This document shows, piece after piece, positions 5,620 to 13,265 of a stretch of 64,000 nucleotides of DNA. Below the pieces are notes generated by a model. It had not been told where the DNA came from. It did not search any database and saw nothing but the letters and a program-made list of their open reading frames with translations. Both the position numbers and the translations under genes were made by a program. The stretch is from Hexactinellida sp. DTS-2022. Taxonomy: Eukaryota > Porifera > Hexactinellida. The stretch spans positions 3,844,001 to 3,908,000 of the forward strand of contig JAPNXP010000011.1 in NCBI GenBank assembly GCA_028753945.1. The letters are read 5' to 3'. Positions within the stretch are counted from its first letter, which is position 1. Every line of letters starts with the position of its first letter.

Positions 5620-6600
5620 TTAAGGGGCGCACTTAGTGATCATCGTTGCAAAAGTTTGGTAATGAAAGTTTATTATTATTGTCAAATATAGTGCGAAAAT
5701 ATGCCAAGATAACAAATTTAAAATTTTTTCGAAAAAATCACCTTTAACTAAGATAATTTTCAAATAGTAGAATACGGACATGGTTGTCTCTCTCCTGGTA
5801 TTTAGTGCAGTTTGTATCGCAGAGCATTCCTCTATTAAATTCTCTCCCTTCCGCCTTCGTCCCTCGAGGACACATTTGGCTCTTTTCTCTAGACCCCTCG
5901 AGTACAGCCACGTGGCGCACTGTGGCACTAGCAACACTGAAAAGGTGTGCAATAGTGATAAAGCTCCCACTAAAGCCAACCATCTGAATGATACAAATAT
6001 GCCAGCTATGTACACGATTAATACTCCAATCACCTCATATACAGTGGAGCCTCCCATAACGGACACTCCAAATAGCGGGCAACCTCTAAATAACGGACAA
6101 CTCGTGGCACGGATTTATTTATTTAGCATATGTCTAATAGAAAAGCAACCTCTAAATAGCGGACAACCTCTAAATAACGGACAACAGTTCCGGTCCCAAG
6201 GTGTCCGTTGTTCAGAGGCTCTACTGTATACCTCCGAAGCTGGTTAAAATCCCTCTTCCAGCTGGTGGGATTATCTCACCTAAATATACAGGTATAACGG
6301 TTACTAACATTCCTGCACCTACGCCATGGAAAAACCTATCAATCAATAGGTGCAGAATTTGTAACAACCGCTATTAATATCAAACCAAGTATAGTTGGGA
6401 GTGAACTTAGTAGGGTGACCAGTTTCTTCCCAAGTATTTAGATCCCGATATGGAGAGAATCGGACCCAGGGCCAGACCTACTACGAATAAGGATATGAAA
6501 ATCGGATAACTAGTGTCGTCTAGGAGCCCTAGTTTGTGTAGATCGCATAAGGTGGGATATGAAAATCCAATCCCAAACCTTGCTGTAAGAAACCAATGCC
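5620..6600 (-). pseudogene. SLC2/GLUT-type MFS sugar transporter, broken
   Basis: Minus-strand exons encode parts of an SLC2-family sugar porter. An acceptor at about 6584 (TTTCTTACAG) opens an exon with FSYPTLCDL and FVVGLALGPILS blocks. Next come RFFHGVGAG and VYLGEIIPPAGRG, typical of TM4 and the following loop. Then a hydrophobic helix, a WRWLALVG-like segment and the loop after TM6 with the PESPRWL-like position (VPQCATWL). Two lesions are visible: a duplicated ATTG near 6335-6342 shifts the frame before RFFHG, and a 185-bp MITE sits at 6042-6226. The first exon and the C-terminal half were not found. By homology the intact protein would move sugars across the plasma membrane. Confidence 0.75.
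6042..6226. mobile_element. TA-flanked MITE inside the SLC2 exon (family M7)
   Basis: Starts CAGTGGAGCCTCC, ends GGCTCTACTG, and is flanked by TA at 6040-6041 and 6227-6228. Removing the element and one TA joins the two transporter reading frames exactly (GGIYEVIG). An internal word AACCTCTAAATARCGG is repeated three or more times. Tc1/mariner-type by TSD and ends. Confidence 0.88.
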
Positions 6601-6704
6601 CAATATTTTGTGAAAATAGGATTAATTTCAAGGTTAATTCCATTCCTATTCAAAATCTCAATCACTCACTATAGTCCAGCGTCATTGCCTAAAAATTTCA
6701 CAAG

Positions 6705-7133
6705 ATTGTTCATTTTTTTGATAAAAGCACCAAAATTTGTACACATGTACTTTGATATAGTGCGAACATTTTTGGATATTGAGGCAATTGAAAGAGTGCC
6801 TATATCGGCCATGACAGCTCCCCAAAGTTACCACGTCCGATAGTGTTCGCCGGACTTGTCCCCCGATCTAAACTTGTTCAAATTATGTTATATCGTTTTT
6901 TTATTGTTGAATTCGGGTTCAGAGTAAAATTTCCGATAATTTGATATATCACATGGCCATATTCGGAACAATTTTTCCATAGCAACGCTCGAATATGTCA
7001 GGAATGTGTCAAAAATTCCATTCTCCAATTGTGTCCTTACCCAAGCAAGTGACCCCTCTTTCGACTCCATACAGCTACCGGAGTATAATTATACACATAC
7101 CAACACTGTAAAATGTGATTTGAGAAAATTATT
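6705..7133. repeat. left TIR of the 6.1-kb element
   Basis: About 429 bp, the reverse complement of 12398-12828 with only about three to four differences visible by eye (a few transitions and a 2-base change in an A/T run). It starts ATTGTTCATTTTTTTGATAA and ends GAGAAAATTATT. It carries a short outward-facing frame (60 codons, 6888-7070 minus) that is also open in the right TIR. Confidence 0.92.
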
Positions 7134-7202
7134 ATGTTTTATTGACTATTAATCGTATTTTCATAAATTTATTCATATTTGAAGCTAGCAGTCGTTAGAG
7201 CG

Positions 7203-8441
7203 ATGTCGAAAAGTTTCAAACTCTTTAGCCCTTGCGGACTACCTAGTTTCCCACAGTCAGATAATACAAACTGGGAACTTTGTGTCGTATGTCAGAAGCA
7301 GACATCAGAGTCCCTTACTTCTCCTACTCTCTCAAGACGGCACGACATTGGAAGAGGGTACAAATCTCTTGCTGAAAATTTAGTCAAGTTTAATGAATTG
7401 GGTAAATTACCAAAAAGTTTGCAGTTAAACAGAATAGATGAAGGACAAGGTATTGAAACAGCTCTAATTGACAATGACGCCAAGTGGCATCATACTTGTT
7501 TCCTGAATTATAATAAAACAATGGTGCAAAGAGCAGAGAAGAGGAAGGAAGAAACCCTTATAGATATCACGAGTGATGAACTTCCCCCCAAACGTAATAG
7601 ATTGCGGTCTTTCAGTACAGGCGCATTTCCTAGTGAGGAATCTTGTTTCTTCTGTGGAAAATCAGCTGGTACAGACATTCTTCACCAGGCATCAACATAT
7701 CAGATTGACCACCGTGTACGGGAGAGTGCTGAACTTGTTGAGGACAATTTGCTCTTAGCCAGACTTAACATAGGAGACATGGTAGCCTTGGATGCCAAAT
7801 ACCATACCAAGTGCTTATTGGCTCTTTACAATCGTGCAAGGCAGGTTAGGACAAATGAACACCAACTTACAGATACTGAACATCAAATATCTGGGATTGC
7901 ATTTGCAGAACTTGTCATGTACATAGAGGAAACTCGTTTTGAAGCAAGTACTGCACCAGTTTTCAAACTTGCTGATCTTGCACAACTCTACATGTCTAGG
8001 ATGGAACAGTTTGTAGTGGGTAACAGGGTGAATACAACTCGACTGAAACAAAGACTGTTGGCACAAATTCCTGATTTGCGAGCTCACATTAAAGGGAGAG
8101 ATGTATTGCTGGGTTTTGAGGAAGATATTGGTGCTGCAATAGGAAGAGTATGTGCCCAGGACATTGACAGTGATGCTGTGCACCTTGCGCGTGCTGCACA
8201 AATTGTACGTCGACACATGTTTGAAGTTACAAAACACTTCAATGGAACATTTGAAGAAAAATGTCAGGAAAAATCTGTGCCAAACTTGTTACTTGCACTA
8301 GTGAATATGTTGCTGGAAGGCCCTAGTATCAAAGACCAAATTCACGAGTGTTCAACACCCGCAGCACTTTCAATTGCTCAGATTATAAAATATAACTGGT
8401 CAAGCACATGCGCACACAGACCAACAAAAGCTCATTCGTGA
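7203..8441 (+). pseudogene. element protein, N-terminal Cys/His-rich part
   Basis: Starts at ATG 7203; upstream codons in frame have no ATG. The first module has CVVCQK followed about 70 residues later by WHHTCFLNYN. The second has CFFCGKS followed by YHTKCLLALYNRARQ. These paired CxxC and HxxxC spacings look like two zinc-binding modules, perhaps for DNA binding. After them comes a helical region with ELVMYIEETR and LYMSRMEQF. The frame is lost near 8400-8440 with at least one indel and a TAG. The expected continuation (PVPIYIGLMLHAQTRKKE) resumes at about 8465 in another frame. Unnamed family; the zinc role is inferred. Confidence 0.6.
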
Positions 8442-8464
8442 GACATAGCACTTCACAAGAACAC

Positions 8465-9597
8465 CAGTTCCTATCTACATTGGACTAATGTTGCATGCAC
8501 AAACTCGGAAGAAGGAAGTGGTGGACAGGATGTTCAGTCTAGGAATCAGTATCTCTTATGACCGTGTGCTACGCCTTTCAGCGGAGATAGGAAACACTGT
8601 TTGTCAACACTTTCACATGGAACAAGTTGTTTGTCCACCTACTATGCGGAGTGGGGTATTCACAACGGCTGCTGTGGATAATATCGACCACAACCCCAGT
8701 GCTACCACAGCCAAGAATTCATTCCATGGCACTGGAATCTCGTTGCAGCAGCATCCCACTTCTGTTGATGCAGGATTGCGTCGTGAAATTATTATTATTG
8801 GAAGTAATGATGGCTCAAAGAAAGTTGGTCCTCTACCATATATCTATACTAATGTACCACCGGTTGCATCAAGTGTTAAACACTCACCTGTTCCTACTAC
8901 CAGTCTTACCTACTTGAAACGGAATGACTTCAAGAAGTACGCTGAGGGAGACTACAGATGGTTGGTAAACGCTCGATATCTTATTGAACAAAGTTCTGAT
9001 AAAACCAGCGAAGACATATCATGGGCCGCATACCATGCAAGGTACCAGGATCCAGGAGACCGAATCATAACACGTACTGCCTTACTTCCACTATTCCAGG
9101 AAAGTGCTCATACGGTAGCAATGATTAAACATTCAATGGATGTTGTCAAGAGTGCTGTTGAACATTTAAATCCTGGACAAACTCCAGTTCTGACTTTTGA
9201 CCAGCCACTCTATGCTTTAGCTAAACAGATTCAGTGAAAGTGGCCCAATAAGTATGGAGAAAATCTATTTGTAGTAATACTTGGTGGACTGCACATCGAA
9301 ATGGCAGCTCTGAAGACCATTGGTGACTGGCTACAAGGAAGTGGATGGACGCATGCACTAGTGCAAGCTAATATTACAACAGTTGGAAAAGCTGATTCTC
9401 TATGCCGAGCAAAGCACGTTATGCGTACAAGAAAGGCACATCAAATTACTGTTGTTGCTTTGTACATTCTGCAACATCGTGCATATGACCAATACAGTCT
9501 TACTAGTGCACAAAAAGGTCAGACTCCGGTGAATTTTGAGGTTAGGTGTAATATGAGAAAACAATGTTGCCCTCAGTTTCATTACTGGACGACAGTT
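8465..9597 (+). pseudogene. element protein, central part with in-frame stop
   Basis: Continues the same protein from RTPVPIYIGLMLHAQTR. It passes through a conserved-looking block with AAVDNIDHNPSATTAKNSFHGTG-type sequence (positions 8670-8735) and GLHIEMAALK (about 9287-9316). A TGA at 9235-9237 interrupts the frame where neighbouring residues (QIQ-KWPNKYGE) suggest a former Trp codon. The reading frame is then open until the MITE at 9598. No known domain is recognised. The block order suggests one contiguous protein with the flanking segments. Confidence 0.6.
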
Positions 9598-10053
9598 CAC
9601 AGTGGCTTATGGCAGGGAATAGACCAATTATTGAGGTCTGTATTATTGTGTTTTCCAGCTTGTTTATTGTTATTTGATTGCCATAGTGTTCTAAATTTCA
9701 AATTTCCAGCTTATCTAAAGCCTACAAGTATATAAAAATTGCCTTCGAACTAATACATCTGGAGCCATAAATAATTTTTTTATATGTCAAAAGATGCATA
9801 GGCATCGATAACCCATATGTAATTTAATTCATAGTACAACGCAAACTCGAAAGATATAGCGGATTTCAGAATTTCAAAAAAATAAGTAACATCATCATGA
9901 CGTCATAACAGACAAAGTATGAGGTGTAAATAAATTTTGATATGACCAAACATTTTCTAAACATCGATAACCCATATGTAATTAATACATTATAATAGGC
10001 TAAAGTGCACACAGATATCTATTCCCTACCAACTGCGATTTTAAGCCACTGTG
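9598..10053. mobile_element. MITE with CACAGTG ends and 5-bp TSD
   Basis: Starts CACAGTGGCTTA and ends TAAGCCACTGTG. The inner TIR continues as TGGCAGGGAATAGA / TGGTAGGGAATAGA after an 11-base gap. Flanking CAGTT at 9593-9597 and 10054-10058 is a 5-bp target duplication. Removing the element plus one CAGTT restores the host frame (YWTTVMQLEV). A word CATCGATAACCCATATGTAA occurs twice inside. The CACWRTG start and 5-bp TSD match Transib elements, but the class is inferred since no transposase is present. Confidence 0.82.
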
Positions 10054-10055
10054 CA

Positions 10056-12249
10056 GTTATGCAGCTAGAAGTTTGCATTCTCACTTATGTTCGTTCACTA
10101 AGGGAGGCACATTTTCTTATGTATCTTGATGCCCTCACAGAACTCGTACCGTGGTTTTATGCATTAGACCACACTAACTATGCCCGCTGGATTCCAGTAC
10201 ATCTGAAAGATATGACTGAATTACCCAAGAATCACCCAGATGTTTTTAGGGAATTCAATTCTGGTCACTTTACAGTGCAAAAGACCAAGCGAGTGTTCTC
10301 AGCCATCCCCATTGATCAAGCGCATGAACAGAACAACGCTTGTGTCAAGGGTGATGGAAGTGCAGTTGGTCTCTTAGATGACCCTGGTGCCCTGCGGAGA
10401 TGGATGGTTGCTGGGCCAGAGATTGCAAGATTGATAGAGGAATTTGAAAATACAAACCTGCACTGGAGCAAAGGAGTAGACACACATCACCATGACCAAA
10501 CAGAAAGTGTACAGATATCTTTTACAAAAGATGTTCGCTCTCTCGTGACTGTCTTTGAAGATATGGGAAACCCGTTTATGGAGGAAAGCCAAGACTTGCT
10601 TGTACTTGATACCAAGGATATTGTTGGGCCTGAAGCAGTGAAGACTGTCCTTACTGCAAAGAAGATAGGCCAGGAGCAGTTTGATGAATTCACAAAGGAA
10701 TGTCTCATAGAGAGGACCAAGTCTATACATGATATTATACGTCGTAACAAGCTACCACTATTTGGCACCTCTGTATGCAGAGTACACAAAGGAAAACAAC
10801 AACTGAACAACCTGAAGAATAATGTAGAACTCTTCTCGCGATTATATATCGGCTGTCAGAATCGTGATGGAAATCTAGCTGAATTCTTTCGACATGAAAA
10901 TCAATCATGTCCCCCATCACTCTCCGATATAGGAAGACTCCACATAGGTACAAAAAGTGATCTCCTGGTGTGTTTAGAGGACCTTTCCGAAGCACAATCT
11001 GAAGCACCAAGTGTCACCATTGTAGTCCTTGATGGCGCTGCAATCATTCAGATGCTGAAACCAGGTGCGGCCAAGACATTTGAGGAATATGCCAATCAAG
11101 TGTTTCTCCCATATATCTCAGGACAATTTCAACACCATTCACGGGTAGATCTAGTATGGGACAGCTATGTCGTTGGCACTTTGAAAGCAACTGCCAGGGA
11201 AAAACGAGGTAAGGGGGTGCGCCGACGTGTTGTTGAGTCAGCACCTTTACCAGGAAACTGGCATAACTTCCTGCGTGTGGACCTTAACAAAAAGGAGCTC
11301 TTCAGCTACCTCTCGAAAACGCTCATACGGTCATTTGCTCATGAAGGCAAAGAACTTGTTGTGACTGATGGAGATCAGGTTCTTTGTGTACCCCCACAGC
11401 AAAACACACTCTCACTTGCTCCATGTAGTCATGAAGAAGCAGACAGTCGCATGATGTTGCATGTAGCACATGCTGTACAAGATGGCCATCACCAGATACT
11501 TGTTCGTACTGTTGACACTGATGTGGTGGTGTTGGCTGTAATGATAGCTGAGACACTGCCGGTAGAAGGTACATTTTGGATAGCATTTGGAACAGGAAAG
11601 AGTTTCCGATACTTGGCAATCCACCAAATAGTTGCCTGTCTGGGGCCTGATAAGTCACGCGCCATTTCGATGTTTCATGCACTTAGTGCCACTTACTGGA
11701 TGTGATACTGTATCAGCCTTTGTTGGACATGGAAAGAAAAGTGCATGGGGCACCTGGAACTCCTTCCCAGAACTTACAAATGCACTGCTGAACCTATCAC
11801 AATCACCAACTGAGATACCAGAACATTGTATGCAGACCATTGAGAGGTTTGTCATCCTTCTATATGACCGAACAAGCACCTGCACTGATGTAAACAAGGC
11901 CAGAAAAAAACTTTTTGCGAAAACATCTTCTGTACAAAGACTTCCGCCAACATATGCTGCTCTGGAGCAGCATGTCAAGAGAGCTGTTTATCAGGGTGGT
12001 CAAGCTACTATCCCACAACCTGTACTTCCTTCTCCAAACAGCTGGGGTTGGTTCAAGACTGACGAAGAACAATACGAACCACTTTGGACTACACTCCCGG
12101 AAGCATCCAAAATCTGCTATGAGTTGATTTGTTGTAATGCCAGAAAGGATGTCGTAATCGGTGTAAATGTAAAAAGGCTTCACTACAATGCACAGCTCTA
12201 TGCCTGTGTGAAGGAGAATGTCCCATCAACTGAATCAAGAAGTATTTAG
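10056..12249 (+). pseudogene. element protein, C-terminal FEN/XPG-like nuclease part
   Basis: Open from the MITE junction to 11705, then shifted by a 10-bp tandem duplication (near 11680-11692) and open again to 12249. Motifs in order: an IDQAHEQNNACVKGDG block (about 10311); VVLDGAAI with Asp codon at 11031; HEEADSRMMLH at 11430; TVDTDVVVLA at 11508; LTGCDTVSAF followed by GHGKKSAW at 11690-11745. This matches the FEN1/XPG order: N-region Asp, I-region E-A-D/E block, D-x-D strand, then a GxD helix-turn-helix with a glycine-rich GKK turn. Nuclease fold is an inference from motif order. The downstream Cys-rich tail appears eroded. It is the best candidate for the catalytic part of the element. 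Confidence 0.65.
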
Positions 12250-12397
12250 GCACAAATGTAAAATAGATATAATATATTAGGGCTATTATTTTATTAACAG
12301 TTTTGGTTAGTTATTGTAAATTAGCGAGTGAAAAACCATATCCACTTAAAAAGAATTCTCTAAATTCGATATTTATGGTAAATCACGGTAAATCTCG

Positions 12398-12828
12398 AAT
12401 AATTTTCTCAAATCACATTTTACAGTGTCGGTATGTGTATAATTATACTCCGGTAGCTGTATGGAGTCGAAAGAGGGGTCACTTGCTTGGGTAAGGACAC
12501 AATTGGAGAATGGAATTTTTGACACATTCCTGACATATTCGAGCGTTGCTATGGAAAAATTGTTCCAAATATGGCCATGTGATATATCAAATTATCGGAA
12601 ATTTTACTCTGAACCCGAATTCAACAATAAAAAAAAACGATATAACATAATTTGAACAAGTTTAGATCGGGGGACAAGTCCGGCGAACACTATCGGACGT
12701 GGTAACTTTGGGGAGCTGTCATGGCCGATGTAGGCACTCTTTCAATTGCCTCAATATCCAAAAATGTTCGCACTATATCAAAGTACATGTGTACAAATTT
12801 TGGTGCTTTTATCAAAAAAATGAACAAT
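12398..12828. repeat. right TIR of the 6.1-kb element
   Basis: The inverse of 6705-7133. The outward-facing frame MESKEGSLAW... is open here for 64 codons (12461-12655 plus). A GTAAGG that could act as a splice donor follows codon 10. Near-identity of the arms suggests recent mobility or gene conversion. Confidence 0.92.
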
Positions 12829-13109
12829 TGTATGGTTGTGCCGCTGCACTAGTATTAAATAAGTAGCAAATTTGTTCATATACTAAAATTGAGAAAGTAG
12901 TGTAACTTGATTATACTACATTATAGGATCTAATTTATACTCGAATAGATACAACCATGGTCATAATTAGTTGTCATCAATAAATCGCGACGTTTGCCTC
13001 AATATTATTCATAATAACTGAAAGTTGGAAGGAAATCTAAAATTATAGCTGTGCCAACAGCATTTTCTTTTGGTGGAACATTATTTTGCAAGTTGACTAA
13101 TAAGTAGTA

Positions 13110-13265
13110 CAGTGAACTCTCGTTATAACGAAGTGCGTGGGACATCTAAATTCCTTCGTTATATCCACAATTCCGGATATTAGTTAAAAGCGGATAATGG
13201 AGATTTTCCCCAAGAGCACTAAATGCAGTGCTCATGGGGGAAATCTCCATTTCGTTAGAAGCGGC
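13110..13265. mobile_element. M2-family MITE, truncated
   Basis: Begins CAGTGAACTCTCGTTATAAC, like complete copies at 30999-31166, 51911-52086 and 59414-59571, but the far end is lost. The inner part holds an inverted pair GGAGATTTTCCCC / GGGGAAATCTCC around GAGCACTAAATGCAGTGCTC. Confidence 0.7.

Follow-up and report, generated by a model that had tools for sequence, protein, structure and literature searches.

Academ is counted among the DDD/E transposon superfamilies (PMC9587614). Within it, AcademX, described by Kojima 2020 as cited in PMC10045372, creates target duplications of 3 or 4 bp and AcademH of 9 or 10 bp, lengths which the author of that paper ties to the nuclease or helicase encoded by AcademX and AcademH, respectively. 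The curated Academ elements of a mollusc study have a mean length of 5,565 bp (PMC10294476), and in another account a RecQ helicase is mentioned for Academ and a nuclease is not (PMC3627910). Here, we analysed a stretch of 64,000 nucleotides (the window) from the glass sponge Hexactinellida sp. DTS-2022 (assembly GCA_028753945.1, contig JAPNXP010000011.1, positions 3,844,001 to 3,908,000), in which a preliminary description had proposed a new type of element, enclosed by long inverted repeats and with a FEN/XPG-like flap nuclease as its sole recognisable catalytic domain. We conclude that this element is most likely a cut-and-paste DNA transposon, present here as a non-functional copy, and that it probably belongs to the nuclease-bearing branch of the Academ superfamily (AcademX), an assignment based on agreement in several features and not on a sequence match. 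The element is therefore probably of a kind already described, AcademX with its nuclease and 3-4 bp duplications being in print (PMC10045372).

The boundaries of the element were located by comparing the window with L010, a close copy found in the searched genome (112 Mb, 18 contigs), and with short copies whose flanks differ. This places the element at 6672..12851 on the forward strand, with TAGTCCAGCG as its left tip and CGCTGCACTA as its right tip, and gives it a length of 5,719 bp after removal of a nested insert and the duplication of that insert. A repeat search of the window found the inverted arms where the preliminary description had put them, at 6705..7133 (429 bp, forward strand) and 12398..12828 (431 bp, reverse strand). 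The two arms differ by 3 substitutions and a single gap of 2 bases across 431 columns, but they are not the ends of the element. The outermost 33 bp on the left and 23 bp on the right are common to the copies and are unlike each other except for their first bases, and because the two outer ends differ mutually, the repeat search leaves them unjoined. The tips are common to the window element, L010 and 12 short copies, the right tip having one altered letter in L028 and L033.

The preliminary description had also suggested looking for target duplications across copies, and these were found. Matches to the left repeat (63 listed; 602 candidates, 40 scored) yielded 20 cut loci, of which four are pieces of the window element or L010, four had one end only and were dropped, and 12 had both ends, so that the set comprises 14 elements (the window element, L010 and the 12 short copies). 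Exact 3-bp duplications flank 11 of the 14, and a 4-bp duplication flanks none of them. The three elements lacking an exact duplication are the window element itself, where CTA (6669..6671) on the left and GTA (12852..12854) on the right differ by one mismatch, L022 (ATA/CTA) and L033 (TAT/TAA). When the boundary was shifted, the best alternative reached 7 of 14 duplications, and left and right flanks taken from different elements matched in 17 of 182 pairs.

The repeats accompany the coding unit in L010, where both arms are present, the tips are those of the window element and the duplication is AAA/AAA. Repeat-only copies likewise have these tips and target duplications. With one duplication per side included, seven of these 12 are 945-952 bp long, and several appear in the list of left-repeat matches as a pair of arms that face each other across about 30 bp; such repeat-only copies were probably moved in trans. 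Among 14 stretches scanned for inverted repeats, long arms (about 330-470 bp) are present in L010 and in the five relatives L012-L016. The arms are partly lost in L009, and none were seen in L011, L039, L041, L043, L049 and L051, the last five being short stretches in which the ends were perhaps not reached. The element that encodes P0001, a family protein of 1,166 residues (see below), has only an 82-bp inverted pair of 78% identity, outside the gene. Only in the subfamily of the window element and in the L012 group is the link between repeats and gene a firm one.

The single large coding unit of the preliminary description is split in the window copy over five open reading frames (ORFs; 7179-8441, 8488-9237, 9301-9735, 10005-11705 and 11632-12249) and is disrupted by a stop, frameshifts and the 456-bp nested insert, but a relative, L040, does have one frame of 1,166 residues (P0001). 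The gene probably starts at the ATG at 7203. L009 and L010 match the window element at 93-98% and their genes are broken as well. At the protein level, 86 matches were listed in the genome, with identities from 100% down to 32% and several of them with long open frames, among these P0001 and a frame of 865 residues in the cut part of L051; the family proteins are mostly 40-54% identical to P0001. The family proteins begin with a pair of CxxC...HxxxC modules and continue with a conserved region some 450 residues long; after a linker, a FEN/XPG-like region and a CXC-like Cys-rich tail follow. The module names are our own, family libraries having given no match. On the forward strand of the window, the first module lies at 7281..7499 (the same module is found in L012) and the second at 7644..7814 (with a similar module in L057), and both probably bind zinc. 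A remnant of the Cys-rich module, whose frame is broken in the window copy and readable in L009, lies at 12115..12240 on the same strand, and the Cys columns 1133-1162 are 94-100% conserved among 11-17 members. Pairwise ratios of non-synonymous to synonymous substitution (dN/dS) among the copies, from rows that cross frame breaks, were mostly 0.3-1.6 and once 3.0, so that recent selection is unsupported in either half of the protein. Searches of viral and prokaryote contig collections with a three-row alignment (A2; another alignment, A1, had no conserved stretch) found no relatives, as expected for a eukaryotic transposon.

The C-terminal part is FEN/XPG-like at the level of its motifs. The region (PIN-type) spans 11015..11750 on the forward strand and holds LDGAAI, LVWDSY, HEEADSR, DTDVVV and TGCDTVSAF, with a change of frame near 11690. 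All peptides quoted in the preliminary description are present and in order; VVLDGAAI, HEEADSRMM and DTDVVVLA are located in ORF 10005-11705, but the last one, LTGCDTVSAFVGHGKKSAW, sits in ORF 11632-12249 and hence in another frame than the preceding three. In P0001 the motifs are LDG (D766), WD (D809), HEEAD (E901, E902 and D904), TVDTD (D928 and D930) and TGCD (D987), and across the family D766 is conserved in 15/15 rows, D809, E901 and D904 each in 18/19, and D987 in 19/19. The spacings of 43, 95, 26 and 57 residues are similar to those of two of the genome's cellular proteins with PF00867 matches, which we read from their sequences as EXO1 and GEN1 (49, 75, 20, 53 and 44, 67, 20, 49), so the earlier statement that the spacing is right holds approximately, although the second gap is longer (95 vs 67-75). 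A loose five-motif pattern, composed after the motifs were known and allowing gaps that cover the family as well as the cellular enzymes, occurred in 10 of 21 family rows (one of the ten, L042, being nearly identical to L040) and in all three cellular FEN/XPG-type proteins, whereas shuffling one member 20,000 times never produced it. The window row is among the 11 misses because its last motif sits in another frame, and none of the 13 long frames of the window carries the pattern; a stricter version was found in 8 of 21 family rows and one of the three cellular proteins. A profile of the region scored 28.4 against the three cellular proteins, compared to 14.2 when reversed, and none of 100 column shuffles scored as high (best 27.0); in this comparison the family's GCD helix-turn-helix segment aligns with the corresponding segment of EXO1. 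As a cross control, the region scored 19.6 against a profile of Mutator-like elements (MULEs), with 2 of 20 shuffles as high.

The proposal that the nuclease is the sole recognisable catalytic domain is not supported. Upstream of it, the conserved region of about 450 residues contains near-invariant D, D/H and E positions, namely VDNID (D143, 12/12), DQPL (D317, 12/13) followed by GGLHIEM (H348, 12/13), LDHTNY (D483-H484, 14/14) and DQAHEQNN (E536, 14/14; all in P0001 numbering). The forward strand of the window carries the first of these motifs (VFTTAAVDNIDHNP, with D143) at 8656..8697, the second together with the GGLHIEM segment (D317, H348) at 9181..9303 and the glutamate motif IDQAHEQNN (E536), a candidate third catalytic residue, at 10311..10337. 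The region is laid out like a DDE core, for which it is an unproven candidate. Inspection by eye suggests a resemblance between its residue order, D ... DxxP ... xxxH ... QxxE, and the core of MULEs, which we take as a lead only.

A number of results weigh against this reading of the protein. P0001 matched no family in Pfam and NCBIfam (Pfam at max_evalue 10, the tool discarding most weak matches), PDB sequence searches gave chance-level matches only and a PDB profile search gave a single match of that level. When the N-terminal half was compared with the MULE proteins of the genome, shuffles scored at least as high as the real profile in 100 of 100 cases for columns 100-600 and in 98 of 100 for columns 290-600. 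In the nuclease region, D928 and D930 of TVDTD fall below the 90% conservation cut, and the profile match spans only the 18-column GCD segment with a probability of 5.6%; the value had been 12.9% in a previous run, of which the global, realigned version found nothing. AlphaFold predictions from the single sequences of 10050-11690 and 10971-11690, stretches which lie downstream of D143 and D317, were uninformative, with a mean predicted local distance difference test (pLDDT) of 33 and 36, respectively. Finally, the Academ assignment was set by printed descriptions and not by a reference Academ sequence.

MULE membership was rejected on the profile comparison, in which the hhalign score of 11.5 stayed under the shuffle mean of 17.4 (five of six MULE loci were cut); the N-terminal half scored 13.7 against the FEN/XPG set as a cross control, with 17 of 20 shuffles as high. 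Moreover, MULEs generate target duplications of about 9 bp, unlike the 3 bp of the window element. The genome itself is rich in matches to MULE-type transposases, at least 150 having been scored among 961 candidates.

If the FEN/XPG resemblance were a matter of chance or of convergent acidic motifs, the C-terminal part would have another fold and no flap-nuclease activity. The missing Pfam XPG match, the short and weak profile match, the uninformative AlphaFold models and the second-third motif gap, longer than in EXO1 and GEN1, would fit such a protein, but five motifs in order that no shuffle reproduced and the alignment of the GCD helix-turn-helix segment with its EXO1 counterpart make this quite improbable. 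A cellular FEN/XPG gene was likewise rejected, P0001 having no Pfam XPG match at max_evalue 10, and PF00867 exceeded the cut-off at six places in the genome, none of them within the window element. Compared to EXO1, GEN1 and XPG, the region shares five ordered acidic motifs at similar spacing and the GCD segment, and it differs in the longer gap, the absent Pfam match and its place in a transposon protein.

The relatives L012-L016 bear on the question which of the two regions would move the element. They are about 2.4-3.2 kb long, their repeats (95-97% matching in L013-L016, 93% in L012) enclose the nuclease part, and searching them with P0001 gave no match of at least 120 columns upstream of that part. 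In L012, an open frame of 416 residues fuses the first zinc module straight to the nuclease region, the DDE-like half being absent from it. These copies, together with the conservation of the nuclease motifs and the fact that our searches detected no DDE family or fold, could be taken to indicate, along the lines of the preliminary description, a separate superfamily whose elements are cut out and inserted by the FEN/XPG-like nuclease, DDE chemistry being absent. To this we give very little credence: the upstream region likewise holds near-invariant acidic positions, fixed 3-bp duplications are the outcome of staggered cut-and-paste integration, no flap nuclease is known to join strands, and deletion copies can move in trans as repeat-only copies can. 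That the nuclease is the excision enzyme and L012-L016 a reduced form of the element that relies on a pathway driven by the nuclease seems to us more improbable still; they are likely deletion copies that moved in trans.

The 3-bp duplications, the length of about 5.7 kb, the long repeats and the nuclease-like region match AcademX, and the element was therefore assigned to this branch. Its duplications (3 bp, exact in 11 of the 14 elements) fall within the 3 or 4 bp in print, its size is near the Academ mean and it has a nuclease-like region; we saw no difference from AcademX in this comparison by description, which covered the duplications, the size, the repeats and the nuclease-like region, and not the zinc modules or the CXC-like tail. 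Academ elements bear inverted repeats, and in the window and in L010 such repeats lie on either side of the coding unit, while in L012-L016 they enclose the nuclease part. The nuclease of Academ proteins is of the XPG type, to which the X of AcademX refers, although no paper in the library searched contained Academ and XPG as whole words. AcademH, which would belong to the same superfamily as the window element if the assignment is right, was rejected: it has a helicase and duplications of 9-10 bp in print, whereas the element duplicates 3 bp, none of the 14 having a longer duplication, and Pfam scans of the element found no helicase family. Alternatively, a DDE transposon from a different superfamily, or from one without a name, might have acquired a FEN/XPG-like nuclease independently of Academ, which would agree with the comparison having been made by description only and with the lack of database family matches. 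We nevertheless regard such an independent acquisition as unlikely, since a nuclease together with a duplication of 3 bp and a length near 5.7 kb is the combination in print for AcademX (PMC10045372) and for Academ size (PMC10294476).

For an AcademX element, a mechanism can be proposed in which one protein of roughly 1,500 residues would act on the tips TAGTCCAGCG and CGCTGCACTA. Its two N-terminal zinc-type modules would probably bind the element ends and its central DDE-type core would probably cut and join DNA with a 3-bp stagger, so that integration would duplicate 3 bp of target. The C-terminal FEN/XPG-like nuclease, followed by the Cys-rich tail, would probably trim or cut branched or flapped DNA during excision or gap repair, and the repeat-only and internally deleted copies would be mobilised in trans.

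The nested insert (9598..10053, 456 bp) is foreign to the element and absent from L010 at that place. It ends in CACAGTG/CACTGTG (in full CACAGTGGCTTA/TAAGCCACTGTG) and is flanked by a 5-bp duplication, CAGTT. Copies of it have exact 5-bp duplications in 5 of 5 sampled pairs, a sixth (L070) agreeing in 4 of 5 bases, and longer relatives of about 1.8 kb exist (L070-L080); on inspection by eye, no transposase was recognised in L070. The CACAGTG end equals the heptamer consensus of the recombination signal sequence. Duplications of 5 bp are given as typical of RAG-like and Transib elements in PMC7204232. Around the Academ-like element, an NHL-repeat protein is encoded nearby, short direct repeats of the CTCTAAATAGCGGACAAC type lie to its left at 6066-6185, and an inverted repeat of 25 bp with a 6-bp loop (92% complementary) is found at 13196-13251.

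The role of a structure-specific nuclease in a cut-and-paste transposon is not known to have been tested. The window element most likely represents a nuclease-bearing Academ lineage, present in a compact, animal-like genome with numerous diverged copies and a number of long open frames, and its multiplied deletion copies, which separate the zinc, DDE-like and nuclease parts from each other, provide material for testing the role of the nuclease.

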